Shown piece by piece: positions 6,001 through 30,073 of a stretch of DNA of 64,000 nt. A model generated the notes under the pieces. The model was not told the DNA's origin. It worked only from the letters and a program-made list of their open reading frames with translations, and did no database searches. A program made the position numbers and the translations under genes. This stretch comes from Chloroflexota bacterium. Its GTDB lineage: Bacteria > Chloroflexota > Dehalococcoidia > Lucifugimonadales > JACPQL01. The DNA lies in NCBI GenBank assembly GCA_016190445.1, contig JACPQL010000005.1, positions 30,733 to 94,732 of the forward strand, in the 5' to 3' direction. Each line of letters opens with the position of its first letter. Position 1 is the stretch's first letter.

Positions 6001-6961
6001 TGTCCACGACCTCGGCGACACAACCGACGGAAGCGTCGGCGAAGGAGACCGAGACCAGGTCCGAGGCGACCCCGCTGCTCTGCGCAACCCAGGTGGCGCC
6101 CCCGTTGCTCGTGCGCAGAATGACCCCACCCGCACCCACCGCCCAGCCATCGGAGGCGTTGGCAAAGTCCACCGACGCCAGGTTCGCCGCCGTCCCGCTG
6201 CTCTGCGCAACCCAGGTAGCGCCCCCATTGCTCGTGCGCAAGATGGCCCCGCCGGCACCCACCACCCAGCCATCGGAGGCGTCCGCAAAGTCCACCGACG
6301 CCAGGTTCGCCACCGTCCCACTGCTCTGCGCAACCCAGGTGACGCCCCCGTTGCTCGTGCGCAGGATGGCCCCGCCGGCACCCACCACCCAGCCGTCCGA
6401 GGCGTTGGCAAAGTGCACCGATGCCAGGTTCGCCGCCGTCCCACTGCTCTGCGCAACCCAGGTGACGCCCCCGTTGCTCGTGTGCAGGATGGCCCCACCG
6501 GCACCCACAGCCCAACCATCGGAGGGGCTGGCAAAGTGTACCGACGTCAGGTTCGCTGTGACCCCTGGCACCTCAGTCCACGTGACCCCGCCGTCGCTGG
6601 TGCGCAGGATGACAGCATTGCCCACCGACCAGCCGACCGAGGGATCAACAAAGTGGACCGAGGCCAGACCTCCCACCTGGATGGCAGCAGCGGGCGCTGG
6701 AGAAACGGTAGCGACCATCTGGCCTGAGAGTATGCCGACCGGGCCAGTGGACTCGCCCGCAGGCGCCTGGCCAAGAGCGGTAAGCGGAAAAGCACCCTGG
6801 GAGGAACTTTCTAGAAAATGGTGCGCTCCGGTGCCAGGACCGGGGGCACCTACAGCTTCCGTGCCTTCACTGGCAACCGACAGGGCAACGAGGAAAACCG
6901 TGGCCAAAAAGCCAAAGGCTGCAGTGAACAGCCAACCTCTTAGCCCAGTCTCACGGTGCAA
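1..6961 (-). CDS. Giant secreted multidomain repeat protein, 3' end truncated by window edge: signal peptide, YCF48/BNR-like propeller repeats, Big/Ig-like repeats, cohesin-like domain, PKD-like repeats
   Basis: Manual translation of the minus strand: ...GWLFTAAFGFLATVFLVALSVAS (signal), GGAILRTSNGGVTWVAQSSGTAANLASVHFANASDGWVVGA repeats, GPLDRVSITPTSPSVPVQQTVQFQATSFDALGNPRTGDTFAWSVLDA repeats, PTQWEWDFGDG (PKD). Open to base 1. Probable TTG start at 6961 with GGAGAA upstream; start uncertain. Absent from ORF track because it has no stop inside the window. Confidence 0.85.
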   Translation of the reverse strand, partial: MHRETGLRGWLFTAAFGFLATVFLVALSVASEGTEAVGAPGPGTGAHHFLESSSQGAFPLTALGQAPAGESTGPVGILSGQMVATVSPAPAAAIQVGGLASVHFVDPSVGWSVGNAVILRTSDGGVTWTEVPGVTANLTSVHFASPSDGWAVGAGGAILHTSNGGVTWVAQSSGTAANLASVHFANASDGWVVGAGGAILRTSNGGVTWVAQSSGTVANLASVDFADASDGWVVGAGGAILRTSNGGATWVAQSSGTAANLASVDFANASDGWAVGAGGVILRTSNGGATWVAQSSGVASDLVSVSFADASVGCVAEVVDKALRTGDGGALWAALSLGLDGRQPTGIHLVDPSTGWLVTARAGILRTTNGCASWQVQRTPRVIETGPLDHVTISPSAATIAVQQAVQFQATSFDAQGNPRTGDTFTWSVLNPTAGSINQAGLFTAGSTPGTFAGVVRVQATSGAITRTATASVTVTPGPLDRVSITPTSPSVPVQQTVQFQATSFDALGNPRTGDTFAWSVLDALAGTINQSGLFTAGTKASAFPNVVRVQATAVDGTTRTANANVTVTPGPLDHVAISPTSTSVAVQQTAQFQAQAFDVFGNLRTATFAWSVLDALAGTINQSGLFTAGTKASAFPNVVRVQATAGGITKTANASVTVTPGPLDRVAVTPAAATVPVQGTAQFEVGFFDAFGNSRTGDTFAWSVLDATVGTITQAGLFTAGTRAGTFANVVRVQATSGAITRAANASVTVTPGPLDRVTISPTSTSVAVQQTVQFQAQAFDVFGNLRAATFAWSVLDPLAGTINQTGLFTAGTRAGNYPDVVRVQGTAESITRAATASVTVLPGPLDRVAITPTSVVLPTNTTAQFQASSFDAFGNPVTATFAWSVLNATAGSISPTGLFTAGSTPGTFAGVVRAQATIAGVTRSATATVEVVLQATARVGTAVVFQGTITTLPVELLNLLAPGLGSYSLRITYDPAVARLLRVEPGVAGMPDTADTSTPGVVLLADADLGGLTGLVRAASLVLEAIGAEDSATALDIDDAQLVMRHPDGSDIIPRSVFDGRLRITKVDFSATPRQGRAPLTIQFEDLTLDNPRAWDWVFFLDQNGNGQPDGGEGVSTSTQRSGQFNFSAGGDVSIQFRVTNDAGTKTVTRINYVRTLLLAFDATTLTTGNVTPVADGGPGPLTVGLRDRTVGTESSRLWTVVNRLTGQVAATSTSSTPSFVIGDGSDFNVTLDVTGPAGPFSLAKDNFIRTLSLAFDATTTTTANVAPLPDGSGPLTVGLADRTSGTETSREWRVVNRLTGQEVGRSTISTPSFLISVGSDFNVTLQVTGPAGTFSLPRTNFIRTLLLSFDATTPTAGNVTPAPDGPGPLDVGLRDRTSGTETARLWRVINALTGEVTATSTQEFPIFAVAAGGDFDVALDVTGPAGSYSISKFNLIRTLRLAFEPTTTTTANVTPVADGGPGPLTVGLRDNTEGTVGSRLWTVVNRLTGVQLGTSTTSTPSFLISVGSDFNVTLRVTGPAGTFSLPRADYIRTLSLLFEATSPTTGNVTPAPDGPGPLSVGLRDRTSGTVALRRWTSPGAATVTSTEATSSLVFPNGGDFAVTLQVTGPAGTYELPKPNFVRTIKAAFHTQPDPAVGTITAQTTTFTVLFFSDAGGTIASYSWDFDRNTSTAPVFDASGPNPSNGYTAGGTYNVTMRVTGAAGIAELTKPGVVTVNQAPIADFTNDPATPANGPAPVRLVDLSMGSPTSWLWTVTGSAAQTSTLQNPTFVFNEGGDFTVRLEVSNAFGSDSVEREAYVRVIRALFTANGTTTPFTIGQGQQVNFSSAPSQGTVTGWAWDFNGDGAFDSTAANPSFTYAIAGVFSVRLRVTGPAGSHPLTLSNLVTVEARPVADFDTVGARTGNVTPTSLGGPGPLTVAFQDRSTGSPTRWLWTVPGSVEQNSTLQNPTFTFNQGNDFDVTLRVFRTVAGRELASDPLTRSAYVRTISVDFDVAPTSTAIGPGQTSTPPVNFTDRSSGTVDQWSWRVRNEAGAVVYESTEQDPSHRFRAGGTYSVRLEVAGPGGSAALERAGAIFVGAAPQARFAVAPGYSRRGVAPHAVQFDDRSLNDPTQWEWDFGDGAAFSPDEDPAHTYVEGGAFDVTLTSTNAFGSDSITRQGFIHVVNAVLAVSGTIPSVTPEGGVWRIQPNYQVAFDASGSQGANLRYQWSFECTDPTTATCHFRVVGSNLNATPTYTYRALGTFYAAVKVSGTGGTETATTTMQVIQPPTARFTVDPTGGDAPEDEVELEDTSLGHPTSWLWEVFRDSNDNGALDEPGDE
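2040..3510 (-). repeat. Tandem ~290-bp PKD-like repeats
   Basis: Recurring translated motif STPSFLISVGSDFNVTLxVTGPAGTFSLPxxNFIRTLxLAFDATT. Confidence 0.8.
4100..5820 (-). repeat. About six ~272-276 bp tandem Ig-like (Big) domain repeats
   Basis: The motif gtccagcac[ga]ctccaggcaaaggtg recurs near 4296, 4568, 4844, 5118, 5394 and 5669; 5037-5110 and 5313-5386 are almost identical. Confidence 0.85.
6020..6560 (-). repeat. Four to five near-identical 123-bp (41 aa) tandem repeats encoding YCF48/BNR-like propeller units
   Basis: The motif ctctgcgcaacccag recurs at 6078, 6201, 6324 and 6447, an exact 123-bp period. Confidence 0.9.
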
Positions 6962-13113: not shown

Positions 13114-14046
13114 ATGACCGCACCAGACCTGGACGAACTGGGCACCAAGGTGCGCAACTGGGGCCGGTGGGGGCCAGACGATGAGCGAGGCACTCTGAAC
13201 TTCATCACGCCGCAGAAGGTGGCCCAGGCGGCGGGCCTGGTCCGCCAGGGTAAGGTGTTCTCCCTGGCCATCCCCTTTGACCGCGACGGCCCCCAGACGG
13301 GGCGAAGGCGCCGCACCAACCCCATCCACACCATGGCCCTGGACGGCGGCGACTTCGCCGCTACCGGCGGCGAGAACGGCCTGGGCATCGCCGACGACAT
13401 GGTGGTCATGTTCCTTCAGTGTGCCACCCAGTGGGACTCCCTGGCCCACGTCTTCTGGAAGGGCAAGCTGTACAACGGCCACGGCTGGGAGGTTATCACC
13501 AGCTCCGGCGCCCAAAAGAACAGCATAGATAAGGTGGCCAGGGGCATCATCTCCCGCGGCGTGCTCCTGGACCTGGCGCGGTCCAAGGGCGTGGAGATGC
13601 TGGAGGCGGGCTACGTCGTTACCCCCCAGGACATGGACGCCTGCGCCAAGGCCCAGGGGGTGGAGGTGGCCTCCGGCGACGTGCTCCTCCTCCGCACCGG
13701 GTACATGAGGAAGTTCACCATGGAGCGCGACCGGGATGCCTACATGGGCACCATGCCGGGCATTGGCCTGGAGGTGGCCCCCTGGCTCCACCGGCGGGAG
13801 GTGGCCGCCGTGGCCGCGGACACCATGGCGGTAGAGGTGATGCCCAGCCAGGTCCCCGGAGTGCGCATCCCATTGCACGTGCTCCTGATCCGGGACATGG
13901 GCATGACCCTGGGGGAGATGTTCAACCTGGACGAACTGGCGGAGGACTGCGCGCGGGACGGCGTGTATGAGTTCCTGTTCGTGGGGCCGCCTCTGCCTGT
14001 CACAAGGGCAGTGGGCTCGCCGGTCAACCCTCTGGCCGCCAAGTAG
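13114..14046 (+). CDS. Cyclase family protein (kynurenine formamidase-like metal-dependent hydrolase)
   Basis: 310 aa; WGRWGPDDERGTLNFITP, LAIPFDRDGPQTG, AVEVMPSQVPGVRIPLHVLLIRDMGMTLGEMFNLDELA. Confidence 0.85.
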   Translation: MTAPDLDELGTKVRNWGRWGPDDERGTLNFITPQKVAQAAGLVRQGKVFSLAIPFDRDGPQTGRRRRTNPIHTMALDGGDFAATGGENGLGIADDMVVMFLQCATQWDSLAHVFWKGKLYNGHGWEVITSSGAQKNSIDKVARGIISRGVLLDLARSKGVEMLEAGYVVTPQDMDACAKAQGVEVASGDVLLLRTGYMRKFTMERDRDAYMGTMPGIGLEVAPWLHRREVAAVAADTMAVEVMPSQVPGVRIPLHVLLIRDMGMTLGEMFNLDELAEDCARDGVYEFLFVGPPLPVTRAVGSPVNPLAAK

Positions 14047-14629: not shown

Positions 14630-15196
14630 ATGAGCTTTGCCGATGGCGGCTTCGTGGTGCTCAACCCTGTGGGAGAGGTGGGCCGCCAGCGCGCCCAGGA
14701 GAAGCTGTCGCCCCGGCTGAGCAGCCTGGCCACCAAGAGGCTCGGTCTCCTGGACGACGGCTTCTCGGGCAGCGACATCTATTTCAAGGAGATAGAGCGC
14801 CTGCTGCGCGAGGGGTCCCCAGACCTGGTGACCCGCCACTGGGTAAAGGAGATACTCTCCCGCCCAGCTCCCCAATCGCTGGTGGAGGAGGTCGCCTCTC
14901 AGTCCGACGCCGTCATCGTGGGGCTGTGCGCCTGAGGGTCCTGTACGTCGGGCTGTATGCACGACGCGAACAACCTGGAGCAGCGGGGGATACCCACTGT
15001 CACTATCGCCCACGACAACTTCGTGGCGGCGGCCCGCGCCCAGGCAAGAGTCCTGGGCCGGCCCAACCTGAAGCTGGCGGTAATGCCACGCCCCATGCCC
15101 ACCTGGGACGCGGACACCCAGCGGGCAGTATGCGCCAGGCTGTACCGCCAGGTACTGGAGGGCCTGCTAGATCACGTCCCCGCAGCCGCACGCTAG
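14630..15196 (+). CDS. UGSC-motif family selenoprotein; Sec encoded by in-frame TGA at 14933-14935 (188 aa)
   Basis: Reads VIVGLCA-U-GSCTSGCMHDANNLEQRGIPTVTIAHDNFVAAARAQARVLG through TGA to TAG; CAGGAGG RBS before ATG 14630; ORF track splits it into 14561-14935 and 14957-15196, which are in the same frame. Confidence 0.9.
14946..14966 (+). promoter_or_regulatory. Candidate bacterial SECIS element of UGSC gene 1
   Basis: CGTCG-G-GC-TGTAT-GC-A-CGACG hairpin; apical loop begins 18 nt after the TGA. Confidence 0.6.
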
Positions 15197-15220: not shown

Positions 15221-15760
15221 ATGCCCATCTACGAGTTCGAGGGAAAGCGCCCCAGCATCGGCGCCTCATCCTATGTGCACCCCACTGCCGTCCTCATCGG
15301 CGACATAGTCATAGGGGAAGGGTGCTGGATCGGCCCCAACACGACCATTCGCGCCGACTACGGCAAGATCCGCCTGGGGGACTTCTCCAACATCCAGGAC
15401 AACTGCGTGCTGCACGGCATGGAGACCACCCTGGGGAGGTACTCCCACCTGGGACACGCCTGCGTGGTGCACGGAGCCACCCTGGGAGAGCACATACTGG
15501 TGGCGATGAACGCGGCGGTCCTGGACGGCGCGGTCATAGGCGACTGGTGCGTCGTCGCCGCCGGCTCGGTGGTCGCGCCCAGGGCCCGGATCCCAGCGAA
15601 GAAGATGGTCATGGGTGTGCCAGCCGCCATCGTGGGCGATGCCCCGCCGGACCGTGAGCGTAACTTCGACTGGACCCATACCAAGGGCTACCTGGGCCTC
15701 CCCAAACGCTACCGCGAGGGCCTGAAGGAGATATCCCTGGACGAGGTCAGGGCACAGTAG
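15221..15760 (+). CDS. Gamma-class carbonic anhydrase / left-handed beta-helix family protein
   Basis: 179 aa hexapeptide repeats: IGDIVIGEGCWIGPNTTIRADYGKIRLGDFSNIQDNCVLHG, GHACVVHGATLGEHILVAMNAAVLDGAVIG. Confidence 0.9.
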   Translation: MPIYEFEGKRPSIGASSYVHPTAVLIGDIVIGEGCWIGPNTTIRADYGKIRLGDFSNIQDNCVLHGMETTLGRYSHLGHACVVHGATLGEHILVAMNAAVLDGAVIGDWCVVAAGSVVAPRARIPAKKMVMGVPAAIVGDAPPDRERNFDWTHTKGYLGLPKRYREGLKEISLDEVRAQ

Positions 15761-15819: not shown

Positions 15820-16011
15820 GTGACCACGGTGGAACAGGTCCAGAAGGCCGTCGCTGAGGCGATGAAGGAGGCTATGGCCCGCAACGGCGCCGCCACCAGG
15901 CTCCTGCCATTCACCGCGGCGGAGATCAGGTTCATTCAGGACGTGGTCGCAGGCGCCCTCGCCAGGGTGCTGGTGGTGGATACCCAGGAGCAAGGCGGTC
16001 CCACGGCGTAA
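15820..16011 (+). CDS. Small uncharacterised protein (63 aa)
   Basis: ORF MTTVEQVQKAVAEAMKEAMARNGAATRLLPFTAAEIRFIQDVVAGALARVLVVDTQ between gamma-CA and the GLPV/PPT gene, co-directional; AAGGAAGG upstream. Confidence 0.6.
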   Translation: MTTVEQVQKAVAEAMKEAMARNGAATRLLPFTAAEIRFIQDVVAGALARVLVVDTQEQGGPTA

Positions 16012-16040: not shown

Positions 16041-17117
16041 ATGGAACTCAAGGCTGAGCAAGTGCGGGTGGCCTCGTACTGGGAATGGCTGGAGCTGGCC
16101 TACCAGCGGCGGTGGACCGACGGCCTGCCGGTGGTCCCACCCACACCCGACAGGGTGGAGACCATGGTGGCTTATCTGGGGCGAGACCCCCAGGAGGTCG
16201 TCGGCGAGGTACCCCCTTCCTACGGGAAGGCCACCATCGAGAAGCTGGCCGTAAACTCGGTGATGGCGGGCTGTCTCCCGGAGCACTTCCCTGTGGTGGT
16301 GGCCGCGGTGGAGGCCATGCTGGACCCGTTCTTCAACCTGAATGGCGTGCAGACCACCACCCACGGCAGCGAGCCTCTGATAATAGTCCACGGGCCGGTG
16401 GTCCGGGAGCTGGGCTTCAATACTGGCGTGGCCGTGTTCGGCAAGGGCTCCAGAGCCAACGCCACCATAGGGCGGGCGGCAAAGCTGGCGCTTTGGAACA
16501 TCGGCGGCAGCTATCCAGGGGAGCCCGACCGCACCAACTTCGGGCACCCCGGCATGTGGTCCTTCTGTATTGCCGAGAACCAGGACTACGCCGCGCCAGG
16601 ATGGGAGCCACTCCACGTAGAGCGGGGTATCGCCCTGGGCAAGAGCGCGGTAACGGTCTTCTCCTGCGAGGGCCCGCAGACCGTGGGCGACTACGGCGCC
16701 GCCAAGCCGATCCTGGACGCCATCCGCCGGGACCTGCGCTTCATGGGGCAGCGCATGGGCCAGAAGCTACTGGTCTTCAACCCGGAGGTGGCCAACATAC
16801 TCTCCTCCCAGGGGTGGACCAAGAACGCTGTGCGCCGGTACCTCTGGGAGAACACCAAGGTGACCGTGGCGGAGCTGCGTGAGCCCGGCTCCGACGGCTC
16901 GGTGGCCGGCACCGCCGACGAGTACGCCCGCATGGTCTACCCGGAGTGGATAGACATGTCCCGCCCCGACTTCCAGGTGCCCATCTGCCCTGGGCCGGAG
17001 GACATCATGGTCCTGGTCACCGGAGGCACCGGCAAGATCACCGTCTGCTGCACCGGCTGGACCTTCGGCGGCCGCGCCGTCACTAGGGAGATACCCCAGC
17101 CGGCGGGCCGCCGCTAG
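16041..17117 (+). CDS. Uncharacterised ~360 aa protein, paralogue of 25928-26968 (here called GLPV-PPT family), linked to UGSC selenoprotein
   Basis: TDGLPVVPPTPDRVETMVAYLGRDPQEVVG, SRANATIGRAAKLALWNIGG, GWEPLHVERG, PEDIMVLVTGG motifs shared with 25928-26968. Confidence 0.85.
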   Translation: MELKAEQVRVASYWEWLELAYQRRWTDGLPVVPPTPDRVETMVAYLGRDPQEVVGEVPPSYGKATIEKLAVNSVMAGCLPEHFPVVVAAVEAMLDPFFNLNGVQTTTHGSEPLIIVHGPVVRELGFNTGVAVFGKGSRANATIGRAAKLALWNIGGSYPGEPDRTNFGHPGMWSFCIAENQDYAAPGWEPLHVERGIALGKSAVTVFSCEGPQTVGDYGAAKPILDAIRRDLRFMGQRMGQKLLVFNPEVANILSSQGWTKNAVRRYLWENTKVTVAELREPGSDGSVAGTADEYARMVYPEWIDMSRPDFQVPICPGPEDIMVLVTGGTGKITVCCTGWTFGGRAVTREIPQPAGRR

Positions 17118-18850: not shown

Positions 18851-18948
18851 CTGGGGGTGTCCCCCAGATACAATATTACCCCCTTCCTGGCCAGGAAGGG
18901 GGTAAGGGGGATGGTCGTCCCGACGCGTCGGGATTCATCACCCTGCTA
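18851..18948. repeat. Intergenic palindrome-rich repeat, copy B (~98 bp)
   Basis: Contains perfect palindromes TTACCCCCTTCCTGGCCAGGAAGGGGGTAA (30 bp) and TCCCGACGCGTCGGGA (16 bp); matches 14159-14256. Confidence 0.88.
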
Positions 18949-20178
18949 GTACAGCGCCTGCTCTTTCACCAGACGCTCGTACTCCTCGGCGGGGATCTCC
19001 AGGAGCTGGCGGAAGACGTACTCGTTGTGCTCGCCCAGCAGGGGAGCGTGGCGTCGCACCGATCCCGGCGTGTCCGACAAAAGCCACGGCTGGCCGTACA
19101 GCCACTCCAGCCCCACCTTGGGGTGCTCCACCTCCACGTGGAACCCTCGCTCCCTAAAATGGGGGTCCAGGAACTGGTCCTCGATGTTCATCACCGTCAT
19201 GGCGGCCACGCCCGCCCCCTGGAGGAACTCCGTCACCTCATGGGCATCGTGCTGACAGGTCCACTCCGCGATGCGAGCGTCCAGCTCGGCGCGGTTCCTC
19301 TGGCGCTGGAAAGCGTCGGCAAACTTCGTGTCCCTGGCCCACTCCGGGTCCCCCAGGGCCCGGCAAAAGGCCTGCCACTCCTCCTCCGATGCCACCGCAA
19401 TGGAGACCCACCTGTCGTCGCCCCGGCAAGGGTAATTGTTGTGGGGCGCCATCATGGGGTGGTAGTTGCCCATGGGGCCCGCCACCCGCCCGTTCATTGC
19501 GTAGTCCATGATGGCCTCGCCCAACATGCTGGTGGTGGCCTCCCATTGGGACACCTCAATGTACTGCCCCTCTCCGGTGCGCCGGCGGTGATAGAGGGCC
19601 GTGGCCGTCGCCACGGCGGCGTGCATCGCGGCCAGGGCATCGCTCCAGGCCGCCTGGAGCTGTCCCACCAGTGGCTCCCCCTCGTAGCCCACCATGCTCA
19701 TGAGCCCCGAGAGCGCGTGGATTATGGTGGCGTAGGCGATGATGTCCTTCAGTGGGCCCGACTCCCCCGCCGCGGGCATGGAAACAACGATGATGTCCCG
19801 CCGGATGGCCCGCAGCTCCTCGTACCCCAGGCCCAGCCGCTCCATCACCCCCGGCGCGAAGTTGTTGGTGACCACATCGGCCATCGGGACCAGGCGCTTG
19901 ATGAGCGCCACCCCCTCAGGGTGCTTGAGGTTGACGGTGATGCTCAGCTTGTTGCGGTTGAAGCCGTGAAAAGCAGGCTGGAGATCGGGCCAGAGGCCCC
20001 GGTCTCCTCCAGCCACGTCATCCCCCACGATGGGGCGGCCCAGGCGGAGCCCGTCCATGCGGGCGCGGGACTCCACCTTGATCACCTCGGCGCCCATGTC
20101 GGCAAGGAGCTGGGCCGCCATGGGGCCGGCCCAGGCGCTGCCGAAGTCCAGCACTCGGTACCCTTCCAGCGGCTGCAC
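18946..20178 (-). CDS. Family III CoA-transferase (CaiB/BaiF)
   Basis: MQPLEGYRVLDFGSAWAGPMAAQLLADMGAEVIKVESRAR; 410 aa. Confidence 0.94.
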   Translation of the reverse strand: MQPLEGYRVLDFGSAWAGPMAAQLLADMGAEVIKVESRARMDGLRLGRPIVGDDVAGGDRGLWPDLQPAFHGFNRNKLSITVNLKHPEGVALIKRLVPMADVVTNNFAPGVMERLGLGYEELRAIRRDIIVVSMPAAGESGPLKDIIAYATIIHALSGLMSMVGYEGEPLVGQLQAAWSDALAAMHAAVATATALYHRRRTGEGQYIEVSQWEATTSMLGEAIMDYAMNGRVAGPMGNYHPMMAPHNNYPCRGDDRWVSIAVASEEEWQAFCRALGDPEWARDTKFADAFQRQRNRAELDARIAEWTCQHDAHEVTEFLQGAGVAAMTVMNIEDQFLDPHFRERGFHVEVEHPKVGLEWLYGQPWLLSDTPGSVRRHAPLLGEHNEYVFRQLLEIPAEEYERLVKEQALY

Positions 20179-20180
20179 GG

Positions 20181-21392
20181 CTATATCACCCCCGCCGCTC
20201 GAAGGCGCGGCAGATCATCCGGTATGTAGCCCAGGAGGTCGCAGAGCACCTCCCGGTTGTGCTGGCCGAGGGTGGGAGCAGGGAGACGCAGGCCCCAGGG
20301 CGTGGCGGAGAAGCGGTAAGGAGGGCCGGGATAAGTCAGCCTGCCCGCATCCGGGTGCCCCAACTCCTGAAAGTAGCTACGACTGGCCAGGTGCTCGTCG
20401 TGGACCACCTCCTGGATCGTCTGTACTGGAACGCAAGGGATGCGGTGCTCCCGACACAGGGCAAATATCTCTTCCTTGGTGTGCTCCATGAACCAGGGTA
20501 TGATCAGCCCCTCCGCCTCGTCCGGGTACTGCTCCGTCATGGCGCGGCGGTCCCGGTAGCGAGGGTTGTTGGTCCACTCCGGATTGCCCAGCAGGGCCAG
20601 GAAACGCTGGTACTGCTCCATCTGGGGGCAGTTGATACAGACGTAGCCGTCCTTGCAGGGGAGCACGCAGTTGGGGTACAGACCCAGACGGAACCGGTTC
20701 CCTGCCCGGTAGCCCGGTATGCCCTTGTAGATATAGGTGGGAAGGTGGTAGCCGGTGAGGAGCACCCCCACTACCTGGGCCTCGGCCACATCCACAAGCT
20801 GGCCCCTGCCGGTGGCTTCCCGGGCCACCAGGGCCATGACCGTGGCCAGGGCGGCGCCGAGTCCCGCCATGAAGCTGACCTGCGCCGCCGGCACCACCAG
20901 CGGCTCCCTCTGCGGCGTGCCGTTGCCAAAGCTGATGCCCCCCGCCGCATTGGCGCTCAGGTCGTGCCCCTTGTAGTCACGGTAGGGCCCCGTGCGACCG
21001 TATGGGGTGAGAGATGCAACGATAAGCCTGGGGAACCGCTCTTTCAGGGAGACGTAGTCCAGCCCCAAGCCATCCACGAAAGAGGCCCCCTGGTCCTCCA
21101 CCAGCACATCTGCGCTCTCCAGAAGACGCAGAAGAATGGCCCTGCCTGTGGCCTTCGAAGGGTTCAGGGTGATGCCCCGCTTGTTGGCGTTCAATGCCAG
21201 GTAGAGGCCGCTCTGCTCCCGGTGAGGCACATCGCCGGGGAAGGGGCCGTGGCGGCGCGACCGGTCGCCCCGCGGGTGCTCCACCTTCAGCACGTCGGCC
21301 CCCATGTCGGCGAGGGTGCGGGCGCAGAAAGGTGCAGAGACGTACTCGCCCCACTCGATGACCTTCACTCCCTCGAGGGCCATGCGGCTCAT
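20181..21392 (-). CDS. Family III CoA-transferase (CaiB/BaiF)
   Basis: MSRMALEGVKVIEWGEYVSAPFCARTLADMGADVLKVEHPRGDRSRRHGPFPGD; start trimmed. Confidence 0.93.
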   Translation of the reverse strand: MSRMALEGVKVIEWGEYVSAPFCARTLADMGADVLKVEHPRGDRSRRHGPFPGDVPHREQSGLYLALNANKRGITLNPSKATGRAILLRLLESADVLVEDQGASFVDGLGLDYVSLKERFPRLIVASLTPYGRTGPYRDYKGHDLSANAAGGISFGNGTPQREPLVVPAAQVSFMAGLGAALATVMALVAREATGRGQLVDVAEAQVVGVLLTGYHLPTYIYKGIPGYRAGNRFRLGLYPNCVLPCKDGYVCINCPQMEQYQRFLALLGNPEWTNNPRYRDRRAMTEQYPDEAEGLIIPWFMEHTKEEIFALCREHRIPCVPVQTIQEVVHDEHLASRSYFQELGHPDAGRLTYPGPPYRFSATPWGLRLPAPTLGQHNREVLCDLLGYIPDDLPRLRAAGVI

Positions 21393-22612
21393 TCGAAGAC
21401 CTGCTGCCCCGCCAGGCGCTCCACCTCGCCCGCCCCCATGCCCAGCACCTGGCAAAGCACGTAGTCGTTATCGCCTCCCAAAAGAGGGCCGTGGCGCCGC
21501 ACGCTGGCCGGCGTGGCGGACAGGCGCCAGGGCGGCACCTGCACATGCGTTGTCCCCAGCTTGGGGTGCTCCACATCCTGCCAGACGCCCCTGGCCCGCA
21601 GGTGCGGGTCTTCGAACAGGTCTTTGGCGCTGAAGGAGGGGATGGCAGCAACCCCCGCTTCTTGCAGTTCCTGCATGGCCTGGCGGGCATCCCGCTGGCA
21701 GGTCCACGCCCCGATGATGGAGTCCAGCTCCGCCTGCTGCGCCCACCGCGCCGCGCCGTCGGCGAAGCGGGGGTCCGCAGCCAGGTCCGGCCTGCCCAGC
21801 ACGAGACACAGGGCGCGCCACTCATCATCGGTGCCCACCGCCAGGCTGAGCCAGGTGTCATTTTCCTTACAAGGGTAGCAGCCGTGGGGGGCCATGAGGG
21901 GGTCCCGGTTGCCCCGGCGCGGCGTGACCCGCTGGTTCATGGCGTAGTCCATCACGGCATCCCCCAGGTGGCGAGTGATGGCCTCTGCGGCGGCGTGGTC
22001 TATGTACTGGCCCACGCCGGTGCGCTGGCGATGGTACAGTGCCGCCAGCACGGCGAAGGTCAGGTTGGTGCCCACCCGCATATCTATGCTGTCCCGCAGT
22101 TCGGTGGGCGGGCCGTCCTGATAGCCTGTGATGGAGCCCATACCGCTCATGGCATTGAACACGTTGGCGTAGCCCGCCAGCTCCCGCCACGGGCCCGTGG
22201 AGCCGAAGGCGCAGGATGAGGCCATGACCAGCGTGGGGTTGACCTGCCGGAGCACCTGATAGCCTAGTCCAATTCGGTCCATCACCCCAAGGCGAAAATT
22301 CTCCACCACCACGTCGCTCACCGCCACCAGGCGCTTGATTATCTGGACCCCCTCGGGGCGACGCAGGTTCAGACGCAGGCCAAGCTTGTTCAAGTTGGCG
22401 CTATTGAAGGTGGGCGACGAATCCAGGTCGCCGCTTACGGAGTAGGCACCGCGCCTCATGGCGTCGGGGTACTGGGCCGTCTCCACCTTTATGACCTCGG
22501 CGCCCAGCATCCCCAGGAAGAGGGTGCAGCCGGGTCCAGCCAGCGCCCACGTGAAGTCCACCACACGGACTCCCGCCAGAGGGCCACTCCCTTCCTGCAT
22601 CCCTTCCAGCAT
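21389..22612 (-). CDS. Family III CoA-transferase (CaiB/BaiF)
   Basis: MLEGMQEGSGPLAGVRVVDFTWALAGPGCTLFLGMLGAEVIKVET; 4-bp overlap with next gene. Confidence 0.93.
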   Translation of the reverse strand: MLEGMQEGSGPLAGVRVVDFTWALAGPGCTLFLGMLGAEVIKVETAQYPDAMRRGAYSVSGDLDSSPTFNSANLNKLGLRLNLRRPEGVQIIKRLVAVSDVVVENFRLGVMDRIGLGYQVLRQVNPTLVMASSCAFGSTGPWRELAGYANVFNAMSGMGSITGYQDGPPTELRDSIDMRVGTNLTFAVLAALYHRQRTGVGQYIDHAAAEAITRHLGDAVMDYAMNQRVTPRRGNRDPLMAPHGCYPCKENDTWLSLAVGTDDEWRALCLVLGRPDLAADPRFADGAARWAQQAELDSIIGAWTCQRDARQAMQELQEAGVAAIPSFSAKDLFEDPHLRARGVWQDVEHPKLGTTHVQVPPWRLSATPASVRRHGPLLGGDNDYVLCQVLGMGAGEVERLAGQQVFE

Positions 22613-22614
22613 CG

Positions 22615-23841
22615 TTAGACCACACCCGCCCTGTGCAGCTCCGCCAGCTCTCCAGGCGCCAACCCCAGCAGACCGCAGTACACCTCCCGGTTGTGCTGGC
22701 CCAGAAGAGGGGCTGGCCCCTGCTGGCTGCGGGGCGCCTCTGAGAAGCCATAAGGGCGAGACGGATACGCCAGTCTCCCGGCAGACGGGTGCTCTATCTC
22801 CTCGAAGAAATCCCTGGCGGCGAACTGCGGCGAGTGGAACACGTCCTCGGTGGTGGCGAAATAGGCCGCGGGACACCCACTGGGCGCAGCCGTCTGGAAG
22901 ACCTCTTCCTTGGTGTGGGCAGCCACCCACTCCCTGAGCACAGCGTTCACCTCGTCCCGGTGACGATAGCGGTCTTCCCAGGTGCGGAACCTCTCTTCAG
23001 TGCCCAGCTCAGGACGCCCCATGGCTGCGGTGAGCCCCTGCCAGTGCCGGTCTTCCCGAGGGTAAAGGATGACATAGCCGTCCTTGCAGGGGAAGATACC
23101 GCCGAAGTGGTAGGAGCGCCGCCGCGTCACCAGCTCGCCGGTGTTGGCGAAGAGCTGGATGTTCAGCAGGTTGAGCATCATGGCCGCCTCCTGCTTGGAG
23201 ACATCCACGTGCTGGCCAGAGCCCGTCAGGTTGCGGGCGATGAGGGCCGCCACCGTGGCGATAGCGGCATGGAGACCACCATCGTACTCCGCCAAATAGG
23301 TCCCTCCCTGCACCGGCTCGCGGCCCGGGAAAAGCTCGTTGCTCAGACTACCAGGCAGGGTGTATCCCTCTCCTCCCGCGTGGAACAGGTTCATCGGGTA
23401 GGCCCTGTACTGGCTGTAAGGCCCCGTCTGGCCGAAGGGCGTCACGGAGGTGTACACCAGGCGGGGGTTGAGGGAGCAAAGCGCATCGTGGTCGAGGCCA
23501 ATGGCCGCCATGACGCCCGGAGTGGCGTCCTCCACCAGCACGTCAGCGGACGCGGCCAGGCGACGGAACAGGTCACGCCCCGTGGCTGTCTCCAGGTTCA
23601 GGGTGACGCCCTGTTTGCTGGTGTTCAAATACAGGAAGAGGCCGCTCAGCTCATCGTCAGGCAAATCCTCGGGGAAGGGGCCACGCCTCCGGGCGGGGTC
23701 TCCGCCTCCTGGCCCCTCCACCTTGATAACGCGGGCCCCCAGCTCGGCCAGCAGCTTGCCGCAGTAGGGGCCCGCCACCATGGTGGCATACTCCAGAACC
23801 GTTATCCCGGCCAGCAGGTCCCGCTCTGCCATAGCTGTCAT
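22615..23841 (-). CDS. Family III CoA-transferase (CaiB/BaiF)
   Basis: MTAMAERDLLAGITVLEYATMVAGPYCGKLLAELGARVIKVEGPGGGDPARRRGPFP; ATGA overlap with upstream gene. Confidence 0.93.
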   Translation of the reverse strand: MTAMAERDLLAGITVLEYATMVAGPYCGKLLAELGARVIKVEGPGGGDPARRRGPFPEDLPDDELSGLFLYLNTSKQGVTLNLETATGRDLFRRLAASADVLVEDATPGVMAAIGLDHDALCSLNPRLVYTSVTPFGQTGPYSQYRAYPMNLFHAGGEGYTLPGSLSNELFPGREPVQGGTYLAEYDGGLHAAIATVAALIARNLTGSGQHVDVSKQEAAMMLNLLNIQLFANTGELVTRRRSYHFGGIFPCKDGYVILYPREDRHWQGLTAAMGRPELGTEERFRTWEDRYRHRDEVNAVLREWVAAHTKEEVFQTAAPSGCPAAYFATTEDVFHSPQFAARDFFEEIEHPSAGRLAYPSRPYGFSEAPRSQQGPAPLLGQHNREVYCGLLGLAPGELAELHRAGVV

Positions 23842-24950
23842 GAGCCGCGAAGGGGCAGGGCCACCACCGCCAGGCCCACAGCCGTCACCTCCCGCCGCTG
23901 GTTCTCCGCCCAAATCTCCATGTCCACCAGGTGCTCGCCCTTGTCCACGCGCTTGCCCTTGACCCGACCCCTGCACCAGGTGGTGTCCCCGACGAAGTTG
24001 AAGCGGCGCAGCTCCACCCTGATGCGCCGCAGAAAGCCGTCGTCACCTGTCCAGTTGGTCATCAGGTGGCCCAGCCAGGAGACCCGCTGAGGGCCGTAGT
24101 CATACGGCCCCGGCAGCCCCACCTCCTGTGCCCGGCTCCGCTCCATGTGCACCAGCTCCGGCACGTCCACAGCGCCGGTGGTGGAGTCCACCATGCCCAC
24201 GGCGGGGTGCTGCCTCTGGTACTCCAGGGCAAAGCGGTGGGCCCGGATATAGGGAGAGCCGGCCCCGATGAGCCAGGCGTAGATGTCTCGCAGGCTCAGG
24301 GGGCCCTTCACCACCGGGGGCAGCTCCTCACCCTCTTTCACGTCCTCCCAGTAGCGGGGCGTCGCACCACGAATCTCCTCCTGGTCGTAGGCCCGGTAGA
24401 CGGCCTCCAGCTCCTCGGAAGCGTGGCTGGCGGGCTGGACGTCCCGGTAGCGGCCCCGTTCCCCGGCGGCGCCTCGCTCCACCCGGACGCTCCACCCCAG
24501 GCACTTGCCCACCATCTCTCCTGTCTGGTTGCGGTACACTCCCTCCACATATTCGATGAACGAGCGGCCCGCCGCTCTACTCCGCTTCTCCTGAACATCC
24601 ACCAGCCGGGTACTACACGAGAGGGTATCGCCCTCTCGCACCGGCAGGCAGAACTCCCAGTCGCTGCCGGCGTTCCACGCGTGGATGCCGGGGAAGCCCA
24701 CTCGGCCCGTCACCCAGTAGACGCTGCCCAGAAAGCACGGCGGCGCAACTATGCCCCCGTAGCGGCTCTTCCGGGCGTAGGCTGGGTCGCGAAAGAGGGG
24801 GTTGGCATCGCCGATGCCGTCGCAGAAGTGGCGGATGGCATCTCTGGTGGCCTGGGTGTTAAACAGCGCCGTTGGATGGTGCTCCACCCCGATGCGGCGG
24901 CGCACGTCCTCCACCATCTCCTGGGTAATGACAGCGTGGCGTTGCGTCAT
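23838..24950 (-). CDS. Two-domain MaoC / FAS1-like dehydratase (hot-dog fold hydratase)
   Basis: 370 aa; AIRHFCDGIGDANPLFRDPAYARKSRYGGIVAPPCFL and GEELPPVVKGPLSLRDIYAWLIGAGSP, C-terminal FNFVGDTTWCRGRVKGKR. Confidence 0.88.
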   Translation of the reverse strand: MTQRHAVITQEMVEDVRRRIGVEHHPTALFNTQATRDAIRHFCDGIGDANPLFRDPAYARKSRYGGIVAPPCFLGSVYWVTGRVGFPGIHAWNAGSDWEFCLPVREGDTLSCSTRLVDVQEKRSRAAGRSFIEYVEGVYRNQTGEMVGKCLGWSVRVERGAAGERGRYRDVQPASHASEELEAVYRAYDQEEIRGATPRYWEDVKEGEELPPVVKGPLSLRDIYAWLIGAGSPYIRAHRFALEYQRQHPAVGMVDSTTGAVDVPELVHMERSRAQEVGLPGPYDYGPQRVSWLGHLMTNWTGDDGFLRRIRVELRRFNFVGDTTWCRGRVKGKRVDKGEHLVDMEIWAENQRREVTAVGLAVVALPLRGS

Positions 24951-25906
24951 GAGGACGAACCCTGCCCCGCGCCCACCGGGGGGATCGTAATACGCGGGAC
25001 CACGTCCCTGGCGATGGTCTCCAAGGTAGCCGGAATGTCCTCCGGGTGGCAGGCCCAGCTAAAGAGCACCATCCTGGCCCCGGCATCCACATACTCCTGG
25101 AGGCGCTGGACGCAGTGTTCCGGGGTGCCCACCAGGCAGTATTGGCCCACCAGCCGCTGGAAGTCTCCCGCCACGTACCGTGAGCCGAGGTTCGCCGCGG
25201 CGACCCGCATCGCCTTCTCACCGTCCGCATAGATAGACGTATGGATGTAGAGCGCGAACGTGAACCCTTCCAGAGAGCGGCCCGCCTCCCAGGCCAGACG
25301 AGCGATGGCATCCACGCTCTGGCTGTACCGCTCAGGGCTATACAGGTAGGGGAGCCAGCCGTCGCCGAAGGCCACCGCCCGGCGCATGGCGGCCTCCTGC
25401 CGTCCCCCCACCCAAACCGGTGGGTGGGGCCTCTGCACCGGCGCGGGCCGCAGGGTCACATCGTGGAGCTGGAAGAACCGCCCATCAAAGTTGACCGTGT
25501 CCTCGGTCCAGAGGCGGCGCAACAGCGTCAGCGCCTCGTTGGCCCTGGCCCCCCTCTCCTGCACGGCCACGCCGCTAGCCTCAAACTCTCCCGGAAACTC
25601 TCCCCCGACCCCCACGCCAAGGGTAAGCCTGCCCCCCGAGGCCACATCCAGTGTGGTGGCCGCCTTCGACAGCACTACGGGGTTGTGCAAAGGCAGGAGG
25701 ACAATGGAGCTGAGCAGCCGGATGCGCTGCGTGGCACCCGCCGCCACCCCCAGCAAAGTCAGGGCGTGGGCCGAGGGGCTCCGGGACATCATATGCTCAC
25801 CGGAGGCCACGTAGTGGAAGCCCAGGGCCTCGGCGTGGCGGGCCATCTCCGCCGCCTTGGCGATGCTACCCAGGGTTATGCCAAACTCCAGCCTGCTGTC
25901 TGCCAT
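24947..25906 (-). CDS. LLM-class (luciferase-like, flavin/F420-dependent) oxidoreductase
   Basis: 319 aa; EFGITLGSIAKAAEMARHAEALGFHYVASGEHMM, LTLGVGVGGEFPGEFEASG, HPPVWVGGRQEAAMRRAVAFGDGWLP. Confidence 0.92.
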   Translation of the reverse strand: MADSRLEFGITLGSIAKAAEMARHAEALGFHYVASGEHMMSRSPSAHALTLLGVAAGATQRIRLLSSIVLLPLHNPVVLSKAATTLDVASGGRLTLGVGVGGEFPGEFEASGVAVQERGARANEALTLLRRLWTEDTVNFDGRFFQLHDVTLRPAPVQRPHPPVWVGGRQEAAMRRAVAFGDGWLPYLYSPERYSQSVDAIARLAWEAGRSLEGFTFALYIHTSIYADGEKAMRVAAANLGSRYVAGDFQRLVGQYCLVGTPEHCVQRLQEYVDAGARMVLFSWACHPEDIPATLETIARDVVPRITIPPVGAGQGSSS

Positions 25907-25927
25907 GATGCACCCTCTCGTCCTTGC

Positions 25928-26968
25928 TCAGATGATCTCTTTGGTAACCATCCAGGAATCGCCAAAGATGGGGAGGAAGACCGCATGGTAAGGCTCCGGG
26001 CCGCCAGCCACCAGGACCATGATATCCTCCGGCCTCCTGGCCACGTGGACCATGCCGTCCTTGATGACCGGCTCGATCCTCTCGAGGCGCATCAGGTCCG
26101 GGGACAGCCGCGACTCCGGGAAGGCGCTGTGCTCGTACAGGAACCGCTTCACGTCCTGCTTACTCATGCCCTCGCGAATTGCCAGGCTCGCATGGCCCGA
26201 GGTCACGATTATGCCCGGCTCGCCCCGGCCCAGCAGGACGTTGTTCCCAGCCATCTGCCCCATGCCATCGGCCATGTGCATGAGCATGTCCTTCCAGTGG
26301 ACACACGTGGCCGTATGAACATTCAGGGTGCCGCTGGGTGCGAAGACCGTCACAGTGCTCTGCTCAGGCTTGAAGCCGCGCTCCACATGAAGAGGTTCCC
26401 ATGGCGAGTTCTCTTCGTCCTCACCAAAGCAGAAGCTGTACTTGCCAGGAAAGCCGTGGATGGCTTTGTCCACCAGTTCATTCTTGGCCCCACCCACGTT
26501 CAGCAGTATGAGCCGCATGGCCCGACCAATGGTGGCGTTGGCCTGTGCGCCAGGGCCCAGACATCCCCGCCGGCAGTTGATGCTCAGGGTCCCCCGCACG
26601 GGCCCGTTGATGATCACGCCTACGGCACAGGGATTGGTGGTGGCCTGGACCGCATCTATGTTGAACTGGCGCTCCTGGAGGCACCCCACCGCGGCTATCA
26701 GCACCGGCATGTACTCCGGGCGGCATCCGGCCATCACCGCATTTACGGCTATCTTCTCCACCGTGGCCACACCGTTCATGGGCCCCACGATACCCACCGC
26801 CACCTGCGGGTCACGGCCACACGCCTCCACCATGCGCCACACCCGCTCCTCGGTGGGTGGAATCACAGGCAGGCCGTCGCCCCACCCGCGCCGCATCACC
26901 TCCTCGTTGACCCGCTCCAGGGAGTCCTCAAACTCAACGACGTCGGACGCCAGACGTCCTTTGGACAT
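25928..26968 (-). CDS. Uncharacterised ~350 aa protein, paralogue of 16041-17117 (GLPV-PPT family), linked to UGSC selenoprotein 2
   Basis: WGDGLPVIPPTEERVWRMVEACGRDPQVAVG, AQANATIGRAMRLILLNVGGA, WEPLHVERGF, PEDIMVLVAGG; start trimmed to MSKGRLASD. Confidence 0.85.
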   Translation of the reverse strand: MSKGRLASDVVEFEDSLERVNEEVMRRGWGDGLPVIPPTEERVWRMVEACGRDPQVAVGIVGPMNGVATVEKIAVNAVMAGCRPEYMPVLIAAVGCLQERQFNIDAVQATTNPCAVGVIINGPVRGTLSINCRRGCLGPGAQANATIGRAMRLILLNVGGAKNELVDKAIHGFPGKYSFCFGEDEENSPWEPLHVERGFKPEQSTVTVFAPSGTLNVHTATCVHWKDMLMHMADGMGQMAGNNVLLGRGEPGIIVTSGHASLAIREGMSKQDVKRFLYEHSAFPESRLSPDLMRLERIEPVIKDGMVHVARRPEDIMVLVAGGPEPYHAVFLPIFGDSWMVTKEII

Positions 26969-27011
26969 CACTCCGACCTCTCCTCTCCCTCTAGCGCCAT
27001 TGTAATGTACA

Positions 27012-28217
27012 TTACGCAATCACACCTCGCGCCGCCATCTCCGCCATCTCCACCGCCGAGTATCCCAGAGAGCCCAACACCTCCCGGGTATGCTCGCCCC
27101 GCCGGGGCGCAAAGCGCCGGAAGCCACCCGGCGTCTCGGAGAGGCGCAGCGGCACACCCACCTGGCGCACCACCCCTGTCTCCGGGTGCTCCACCTCCAC
27201 CACCATGCCCCTGCTGCGCACCTGCGGGTCCTCCATCACCTCCTCCAGTTCGTACACTGGGCTGAAGCAGGTATCCGCCTCCTTGAGCACAGGCATCCAC
27301 TCCTCCAGGGTGCGCGTGCCCAGCACCGTCTGCACGGCCCCGACGGCCTCCTTCTGCCTGCGGCGCACCCCCTCCGGGTCCGGCATATAGGCGTCCATGC
27401 CAAGCGTCTGGATATCCTCGTAGTAGGGTACGTACCGCTCCAGCCCCAGCGCCCGGCAAAGGCGCTCCCAGAACACCACAGTGCCAAAGGAGAAACAGAT
27501 GTACCTGTCGTCTTTGGTCCGGTACACGTGGCTGGGACGCCGCCCCCGCACCGGCTTCATCCCGTCGGAGAGGAAGAGTGGCCAGTGACGGGTCCCCATC
27601 CAGTAGACCATGGTGTCGGCGCAGGAGACATCCACAAACTGGCCCCGTCCAGTCTCCTGCCGCACCCGGAGGGCCAGCAACACGCCAATAACCGCGTTCA
27701 TGCCGGCTGCGTAGTCCGCCACGGGCACGGCGGGGATGACGTGGCTGCCGTCGGGGCCGCCGGTGATGCCCAGCACTCCCGATATGGCCAGGTAGTTGGG
27801 GTCGAAGCCTGGCACGTCCCGGTACGGCCCGTCTTGGCCATAGCTGGACACCGAGCAGCACACAATCCTGGGGTTGGTCTCCTTCAGAGTGGGATAGTCT
27901 ATGTCCAGCCGAGCGGTCACGCCTGGCCGGAAGTCGTCCACCACCACGTCGGCTACGCGCACCAGGCGGTAGAAGGCCTCCCTGCCGGCGGCGTCCTTCA
28001 AGTTCAGGGCAATGCTGCGCTTGTTGCGCTCCAGAGCGGAGTAGGCCAGGCGGCGGCCCTCGCGTTGGTCTATGATCCCCTTGGGCGCCGACCTGGCGGC
28101 CGGGTCCTCCACCTTGATGACGTCCGCCCCCATGTCCCCCAGCATCACAGTGCAGAAAGGGCCGGGGATAAACCGGGTCAGGTCAATTACAGTCACACCC
28201 TCCAGTGGAGCGGCCAT
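27012..28217 (-). CDS. Family III CoA-transferase (CaiB/BaiF)
   Basis: MAAPLEGVTVIDLTRFIPGPFCTVMLGDMGADVIKVEDPAARSAP; 401 aa. Confidence 0.94.
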   Translation of the reverse strand: MAAPLEGVTVIDLTRFIPGPFCTVMLGDMGADVIKVEDPAARSAPKGIIDQREGRRLAYSALERNKRSIALNLKDAAGREAFYRLVRVADVVVDDFRPGVTARLDIDYPTLKETNPRIVCCSVSSYGQDGPYRDVPGFDPNYLAISGVLGITGGPDGSHVIPAVPVADYAAGMNAVIGVLLALRVRQETGRGQFVDVSCADTMVYWMGTRHWPLFLSDGMKPVRGRRPSHVYRTKDDRYICFSFGTVVFWERLCRALGLERYVPYYEDIQTLGMDAYMPDPEGVRRRQKEAVGAVQTVLGTRTLEEWMPVLKEADTCFSPVYELEEVMEDPQVRSRGMVVEVEHPETGVVRQVGVPLRLSETPGGFRRFAPRRGEHTREVLGSLGYSAVEMAEMAARGVIA

Positions 28218-28249: not shown

Positions 28250-29377
28250 CTAGAACGGGGCAGGATGCCTGGTGGGCAGGACAACCGTGGCCTTGCCGGT
28301 GGCGGTGCTCTCCTTGCGCTGGTTCTCGGCCCAGACATCAATATCCACCAGGTGGTTCTCGCCCTCCTGGCGCTTGCCGGTCACCCTGCCTCGGACCCAG
28401 GTAGTGTCTCCTATGTAGTTGAAGCGACGCAACTCAACGTAGAGCCGCTTCAGAAAGCCGTCGTCTCCCATCCAGTTGGTGAGCAGGTGGCCCACCCAGC
28501 AGCAGCGCTGGCAGCCGTAGTCGTAGGCCCCCGGCAGGCCAGCGCTGGAGGCAGCGTCCTGGACATCGTGCACCCGGATGATGGCCTCGCGCGCCCCTGT
28601 AGTGGGGTCCTGCCAGCCCCAGGAGGGGTGCCGCATTATCTCCCTTAGCTGAAGGCCATGGGAGATGCCCCCGATGCACCCCGCCACGAAGGCGTACAGG
28701 TCGCCGTGACTCAGCGGCCCCTTCACCACCGGCCTAAGCTCCTCACCCACCTGCACATCATCCCAGAAGCGGGGGTTGCTGCCCCGTATCTCCTCGGAGA
28801 GAACGGCCTCCTCAATGGCCTTCTGTTCCTCTCGGGTGTACTGGTACGGCTCATACTTGTACTTGCCCCGCTCGCGGGCGCCGCCGCGCTCCGCCCGCAC
28901 CTGCCACCCCTTGCCCCTGGCCACCACCTCACCCCGCTGGTTGCGGTACGTGGCCACGCTGTACACAATGGCGATGCGCCCGGCGAAGCGGCCCTCCTTC
29001 TCCTGCACGTCCGTGAACTGCTCCTGGACGTTGATGCGGTCCCCCTCTCGGATTGTCTGGTACCACTCCCAGTCGTTCCCGGCGTGAAAGCCGTGCACCC
29101 CAGGGAGACCCCCCACCCTACCCGAGACCCAGTACACGCTGTAGAGGAAGGTGGGCGGGGCGATTATAGTCCCGTGCCTGGTGCCGCGGGCGTACTCCTC
29201 GTCCCAGTAGAGGGGGTTGGAGTCGCCGACGCCCTGGCAGAAGTGCCGGACGGCGTCCCGGCAGGCGAACTCGTTGAACACACCCACCCCGTACTGGCTG
29301 AGGCGGTTGTACCTGCCTATCTGCGCCCGAAGCTCTGCCAACCCCTCATCGGTTATCCTCGCCTGTTCCAGAACCAT
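28250..29377 (-). CDS. Two-domain MaoC / FAS1-like dehydratase, paralogue of 23838-24950
   Basis: DAVRHFCQGVGDSNPLYWDEEYARGTRHGTIIAPPTFLYSVYWVSGRVG; VGEELRPVVKGPLSHGDLYAF; start at MVLEQARI with GGAGAAG RBS. Confidence 0.88.
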   Translation of the reverse strand: MVLEQARITDEGLAELRAQIGRYNRLSQYGVGVFNEFACRDAVRHFCQGVGDSNPLYWDEEYARGTRHGTIIAPPTFLYSVYWVSGRVGGLPGVHGFHAGNDWEWYQTIREGDRINVQEQFTDVQEKEGRFAGRIAIVYSVATYRNQRGEVVARGKGWQVRAERGGARERGKYKYEPYQYTREEQKAIEEAVLSEEIRGSNPRFWDDVQVGEELRPVVKGPLSHGDLYAFVAGCIGGISHGLQLREIMRHPSWGWQDPTTGAREAIIRVHDVQDAASSAGLPGAYDYGCQRCCWVGHLLTNWMGDDGFLKRLYVELRRFNYIGDTTWVRGRVTGKRQEGENHLVDIDVWAENQRKESTATGKATVVLPTRHPAPF

Positions 29378-29533
29378 GCCCTCTTCTCCTTGCCACTGGC
29401 GTACCGTCATACTGGTGATACACACCCATGCCGATCCTTCCAAAGTGGAAGGAGAAAAACGAGATGCCTGCCAGCCTCTTGTCTGTGCGCCGATAAGGGC
29501 CATCTGGAGCCTGGAGTCCACACCCCGGAACTC

Positions 29534-30073
29534 CTACGGCTCTCGCCTGGTCAGCTTCTCCACCATGGAGTCGAAGGTGCGCTCCGCCAGGGCGCGGACC
29601 TCCTCATCGGTCATCTCCTCCACATTGGAGGGCCACACCACAATGGGGAAATCGCGCTTTCCCCGCGCCCTGGCCACGGAGTTGGCCAAGTTGACAAAAC
29701 GCTCCGTCACCAGCGCCACCGAGGGAACACCCCGCTCATCCAGGCTTATCGCGTCGTGGACACTCCACGTTGTGCAGGACCCTCAGTGTCCCAGGCCCAC
29801 GATGGCGGCGTCGCCCTTCTTGGCCATCTCCTCCAGGAGCTCCGCAGGGGCGGGTCCCGATGCATTGGTGTGAAGCGCCTTTATGACGCTTCCCGCCTCA
29901 TGCTTGGAAACGGCCACCTCTTCGAGGCGCTCCATGCCGATGAGAAAGCTACGCCAGCCGTTGCTCATGATGCCCAGCGTCTTGCCACTCAGGGAATCCA
30001 GGCGCTCCGCGTTCCCATCCCTGCGGTCCTGGGGAATGCCCACAGGACTGAGTATGCGTATGGTCTGTGCCAT
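29534..30073 (-). CDS. UGSC-motif family selenoprotein, second copy; Sec encoded by in-frame TGA at 29783-29785 (179 aa)
   Basis: Minus strand reads AAIVGLGH-U-GSCTTWSVHDAISLDERGVPSVALVTERFVNLANSVARARG through TGA to the downstream stop; ORF track splits it into 29783-30073 and 29534-29719. Confidence 0.9.
29755..29769 (-). promoter_or_regulatory. Candidate bacterial SECIS element of UGSC gene 2
   Basis: Perfect 6-bp stem CGTGGA-GTG-TCCACG; loop starts 20 nt after the TGA. Confidence 0.6.

Follow-up and report, generated by a model that had tools for sequence, protein, structure and literature searches.

Two protein families encoded close together in a Chloroflexota genome, the selenoprotein family UGSC and a family here called GLPV, almost certainly act as one unit. 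They very likely form one enzyme, because they are nearly always found together and often as a fused gene. From the genomic context, we infer a two-subunit selenocysteine (Sec)/thiol enzyme acting on imported organic acids, although the reaction is unproven. GLPV is a label coined here for the unnamed protein family of two genes in the stretch of 64,000 nucleotides that was analysed (the window).

The initial annotation had described these two genes as clear paralogues, and this is supported by 39% identity over 320 residues (BLASTP, E 9e-64) and by the presence of the motifs that it quoted (among them DGLPV[VI]PPT, WEPLHVERG and PEDIMVLVxGG). It had also placed each of them near a co-directional UGSC selenoprotein gene. 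Both pairs indeed have UGSC upstream and GLPV downstream in the same direction, and each UGSC gene contains one in-frame UGA (Table 1). A gamma-carbonic-anhydrase-like gene is found together with a small ORF in the gap of 844 bp in the first pair; that of 2565 bp in the second pair is occupied by a FAS1_DH/MaoC-type gene as well as one for CaiB. Such spacing is unusually loose for the family. Acyl-CoA dehydrogenases are also among the neighbours of the window pairs. Elsewhere in the window, five CaiB/BaiF CoA-transferase genes, one of them that of the second gap, lie within ~9 kb (18946-28217, minus strand), and a protein of >2300 aa with YCF48-type/PKD-like-looking repeats, encoded at 2-6961 (minus strand), extends past the window start.

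Table 1. Features of the two UGSC-GLPV regions of the window
Feature	Position	Strand	Length	Remarks
PF04199 cyclase family gene	13114..14046	+		upstream of UGSC1
UGSC1 selenoprotein	14630..15196	+	188 aa	one in-frame UGA
Sec UGA of UGSC1	14933..14935	+		U-G-S-C motif
SECIS-like hairpin after UGSC1 UGA	~14946-14966	+		GU loop; by eye, tentative
Gamma-carbonic-anhydrase/PaaY-like gene	15221..15760	+		hexapeptide repeats; between UGSC1 and GLPV1
Small ORF	15820..16011	+	63 aa	between carbonic-anhydrase-like gene and GLPV1; coding-like composition only
GLPV1	16041..17117	+	358 aa	open ORF
F420/FMN luciferase-like oxidoreductase (TIGR03619)	24947..25906	-		downstream of GLPV2
GLPV2	25928..26968	-	346 aa	open ORF; paralogue of GLPV1
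CaiB/BaiF CoA-transferase (PF02515)	27012..28217	-		between UGSC2 and GLPV2
FAS1_DH_region/MaoC-type dehydratase	28250..29521	-		between UGSC2 and GLPV2
UGSC2 selenoprotein	29534..30073	-	179 aa	one in-frame UGA
SECIS-like hairpin after UGSC2 UGA	~29769-29755	-		by eye, tentative
Sec UGA of UGSC2	29783..29785	-		U-G-S-C motif

Membership of the UGSC family, as judged by the PF24696 score together with a U/C-G-S-C motif, is met by UGSC1 (141.4 bits, E 4e-41) and UGSC2 (147.5 bits, E 5e-43; Pfam cut-off 25); the equivalog cut-off of NCBIfam NF041046 (125 bits) is not reached by either protein (97.7 and 107.8 bits). Sec coding is evident in both genes: the Pfam match extends across the in-frame UGA, and the source genome encodes both tRNA-Sec (anticodon TCA) and SelB, so that the UGAs are readable as Sec. 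The SECIS-like hairpins must be regarded as tentative, since by folding energy neither post-UGA region was better than its shuffles. Haloarchaeal and mycobacterial versions of UGSC have Cys instead of Sec.

The earlier observation that the pair occurs twice holds for the window only, as the source genome (2.02 Mb in 52 contigs, ~81% complete) contains four GLPV and four UGSC genes, all four linked. On contig 28, UGSC is directly upstream of GLPV, whereas on contig 20 (L004) the two constitute a single reading frame through the UGA of the UGSC motif, that is, a natural fusion. The tRNA-Sec gene (C28:664-757, L168) is located ~2 kb from the contig 28 pair.

Among 301 genomes of the phylum, GLPV was detected in 32 and UGSC in 32; both were present in 31, with one genome containing GLPV only and one UGSC only, so that they co-occur in 31/33 genomes having either family (Fisher p 6e-40). 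A same-strand UGSC gene lies <300 bp away from 58 of the 69 GLPV genes of these genomes (upstream in 44 cases, downstream in 14) and within 5 kb of a further four. Only a limited number of candidates was scored in each genome, and many seeming orphan UGSC genes turned out to be an effect of this search, GLPV adjoining four of the seven that were re-examined; the co-occurrence and linkage figures for the phylum are therefore lower bounds. Scanning of GTDB genomes yielded at least 597 relatives. The best 80 loci are distributed among Chloroflexota, Rokubacteria/Methylomirabilota, Beta-, Alpha- and Deltaproteobacteria, Binatia, Acidobacteria, Poribacteria, Nitrospinota and Actinomycetes, including Mycobacterium gordonae. 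UGSC is on the same strand as GLPV in every cross-phylum locus with UGSC inside the examined stretch (66/66); the remaining 14 have no UGSC in that stretch, and some of them stop at a contig edge. In two Poribacteria genomes in which no UGSC adjoins GLPV, one UGSC is found elsewhere in the genome. Plasmids of haloarchaea, Variovorax, Roseovarius and others also carry GLPV relatives, several of which are annotated as 'hypothetical protein' beside a 'UGSC family (seleno)protein'. Such linkage is thus seen in haloarchaea as well as in about ten phyla of bacteria, and the enrichment on which the initial annotation had made its proposal depend extends well outside the window.

Fusions of UGSC and GLPV across the Sec codon are common and contain exactly one in-frame UGA, at UxxC. 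The two families also co-evolve: for 125 non-redundant pairs, their distance matrices are correlated with r 0.74 (0.82 for UGSC-first pairs), as compared with permutation maxima of 0.11 to 0.17, although part of this correlation is due to shared descent of the host genomes. Co-occurrence, same-strand linkage, fusion and correlated trees all support the original suggestion that the two proteins act together. A physical complex remains inferred, with indirect support from the fusions and from the predicted structure of a fused protein. On two haloarchaeal plasmids (L185:8983-11645 and L189:7279-9978), one Cys-type UGSC gene is located between two different GLPV genes, which suggests a heteromer.

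Plasmid pairs adjoin genes for TRAP and tripartite-carboxylate receptors and CaiB genes. The trxB gene adjoins the pair in Variovorax and Roseovarius, but it cannot be considered a general neighbour, being present at 2/7 of the plasmid loci viewed, with one weak match in 80 other loci. TctC is common near betaproteobacterial pairs; we place little weight on it as a specific neighbour, because its density is just 1.5-fold above the local background.

The pair is strongly amplified in a groundwater Chloroflexi MAG, JACPQD01 (5.0 Mb; the genome of loci L142, L093, L117, L123 and L139), which yielded at least 150 UGSC and at least 150 GLPV matches. Genes were counted in 626 kb of this genome (loci L222-L261), where 122 UGSC and 123 GLPV genes are present, 79 of the latter being fused to UGSC and 39 separate yet adjacent. 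No gene is more than 0.91 identical to its nearest paralogue, and this speaks against strain mixing as the origin of the copy number. Exactly one UGA occurs in 115 of the UGSC genes, and reassignment of this codon is unlikely, since all 115 are located within U-G-x-C. SelB was found in this genome; tRNA-Sec was unresolved among the 150 of 737 candidates that were scored. SBP_bac_5 lipoproteins are the second largest family in the examined DNA and lie within 3 kb of 101 of the 123 GLPV genes (99 on the same strand); tandem UGSC-GLPV-SBP cassettes recur, and most UGSC genes lie in them. The largest published selenoprotein gene counts for bacteria are 57 and 63, a maximum exceeded by the at least 115 UGA-containing UGSC genes of JACPQD01. 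Amplification of the cassette would accordingly revise the known ceiling on the selenoproteins used by one bacterial genome.

GLPV has not proved to be a known enzyme unrelated to selenoproteins, an outcome that would have refuted the initial proposal: neither Pfam nor NCBIfam has a family that it matches, and it matched none of the PDB sequences; a search of PDB sequences with profiles of both UGSC and GLPV likewise gave no credible match. Nor did GLPV display homology to the GRDB, GrdE/PrdA-type (hhalign) or UGSC profiles. The structure prediction suggested at the outset gave AlphaFold2 models of GLPV1 (pLDDT 93.6, pTM 0.93) and of a natural UGSC-GLPV fusion from groundwater Chloroflexi (pTM 0.93 over both domains). 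The top PDB match of GLPV in Foldseek is class I [4Fe-4S] fumarate hydratase (E 2.6e-4, prob 0.90), but its TM-score is only 0.25-0.30 and the fold is for this reason not clearly assigned. The weak likeness to the alpha subunit of class I fumarase (7xky) and to Toblerone-fold cyclic amide hydrolases, with TM-scores of 0.15-0.30 and no common active-site motif noticed, is probably a local pattern match. Residues D27, P34, G77, G118, R145, W188 and G328 of GLPV are strongly conserved, and C78 is present in 118/125 pairs. Cys78 does not appear to be a fixed redox partner of Sec, since most Sec-less pairs retain it and the U-S-T-C class has lost it.

The fumarase match may hint that the pair is one lyase/hydratase-type enzyme, in which GLPV would form the body that performs catalysis, and UGSC would be a mobile domain with a Sec/Cys that serves as acid/base or metal ligand, or is idle. 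This would be consistent with the existence of fusions that have lost Sec and both Cys (MGTS) in Sporomusa termitida and Vibrio europaeus (L187:8317-10041 and L188:8323-10008), which adjoin aconitase X and DUF126 genes. However, apart from the low TM-score, the three conserved Cys ligands expected of a class I fumarase or Fe-S hydro-lyase are absent, Cys78 alone being widely kept, and retention of the C..C (Sec or Cys) pattern in 119/125 pairs argues for a real selenol/thiol role. We consider a lyase or hydratase unlikely, without dismissing it.

Alternatively, UGSC may be a thioredoxin-like thiol oxidoreductase or peroxidase, with GLPV as its protein substrate or docking partner. The UxxC motif is compatible with this, and UGSC was called likely Trx-like in the accessible part of Zhang and Gladyshev 2008 (PMC2398784). 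The fold predicted here is contrary to that assignment: UGSC is modelled as a parallel three-layer alpha/beta/alpha structure in which Sec starts a helix after a central strand, its structural matches are lumazine-synthase-like, and no thioredoxin is found among the 50 Foldseek matches listed. Moreover, >100 paralogues paired with solute-binding proteins would be ill-suited to a housekeeping redox protein, and the profile homology of UGSC points instead to GRDB. Altogether, a thioredoxin-like role is improbable. The idea that UGSC and GLPV form no complex and merely share operons, catalysing consecutive steps of the same pathway, can appeal to the 0.8-2.6 kb and the other genes that separate the window pairs, but deserves hardly any credence in view of the frequent single-chain fusions, near-absolute co-occurrence and matching trees.

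Profile-profile alignment of UGSC with GRDB (probability 93%, P 3.5e-7) gave a score of 49, as compared with at most 19 in 100 column shuffles, and aligned the Sec of UGSC onto the Sec/Cys of the GrdB/PrdB C-terminal domain. Judged by this sequence comparison, UGSC is a distant homologue of the GrdB/PrdB Sec domain. The kinship is visible by profile-profile alignment only; compared with profiles at E 0.01, the window UGSC proteins matched UGSC alone and not GRDB (PF07355). No match to GrdE (PF09338) was found in the source genome. The same genome encodes the C-terminal domain of GRDB/PrdB as a protein on its own, in a Cys version (CPVC; C20:67748-68152, L149). The family of this protein is also present, without GrdE, in many further genomes of the phylum.

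The explanation that we prefer is a single cytosolic, Sec-dependent enzyme of which UGSC and GLPV form either the two subunits or the two domains. UGSC would carry the Sec nucleophile and the resolving Cys (UxxC), while most of the substrate pocket would come from GLPV, which has a fold of its own and in which D27, G118, R145 and W188 are conserved and Cys78 nearly so; the distance from Sec to this pocket is unmeasured. Diverged paralogues may take different imported small organic acids or CoA esters thereof. In glycine and proline reductases, Sec attacks an activated substrate, from which a substituent is reductively cleaved. The GrdB/PrdB relationship and the occasional trxB linkage lead us to infer that the most likely reaction of the UGSC-GLPV enzyme would be of this kind, after which the UxxC pair would form a selenenylsulfide to be reduced by the thioredoxin system. 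The CaiB, acyl-CoA dehydrogenase and MaoC neighbours and the SBP_bac_5 association count in favour of such an enzyme; the Sec/Cys-less pairs, the rarity of trxB linkage and the lack of homology between GLPV and GrdE/PrdA count against the mechanism. Indeed, some paired UGSC proteins have neither Sec/Cys nor the second Cys, so thiol chemistry is not universal, and the labels 'redox enzyme' and 'substrate-binding subunit' of the initial annotation remain inferences, as do the substrate class and the reductive chemistry. With no biochemistry known, the full mechanism is offered as a tentative proposal, plausible but somewhat short of an even prospect.

UGSC is among the commonest selenoprotein families of aquatic metagenomes, with 255 sequences in the GOS set according to the accessible part of PMC2398784. 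That part also describes UGSC fused to a conserved domain, 'Unknown_1', in aquatic sequences, and Unknown_1 may be GLPV. The description of the system as undescribed needs to be qualified for the fusion reported in 2008. Unlike the present analysis, the accessible part of that paper gives no linkage statistics, separate-gene partner or GrdB relationship, and the NF041046/PF24696 family entry records neither a partner nor a function. The literature found, insofar as its text was available, likewise gives no function or partner for UGSC. The function of UGSC is now directly testable, since the family has a nearly obligate partner, a fold prediction and a homology to reductases of the Stickland type, and since Cys versions are available in cultured Variovorax, Roseovarius, Natrinema and Mycobacterium. 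Natural Cys versions of the pair are, for example, those of Variovorax SRS16 (WP_162571218, WP_162571219) and Natrinema zhouii (WP_226778461, WP_226778460).

Compared with the known reductases, UGSC resembles GrdB/PrdB (GRDB, PF07355) in corresponding to their C-terminal alpha/beta domain, with Sec equally placed, and both families have a conserved E-x2-G-(I/V)-P segment after Sec. Unlike GrdB/PrdB, UGSC has neither the N-terminal half nor the third Cys. The partner also differs, GLPV not being a proprotein of the GrdE/PrdA type. It is tempting to speculate, though this is rather doubtful as a whole, that UGSC and GLPV represent a further class of Sec reductase beside glycine and proline reductase, diversified into substrate-specific cassettes, each including a dedicated solute-binding protein, and, with >115 Sec genes in one Chloroflexi genome, accounting for the largest bacterial selenoprotein set reported.
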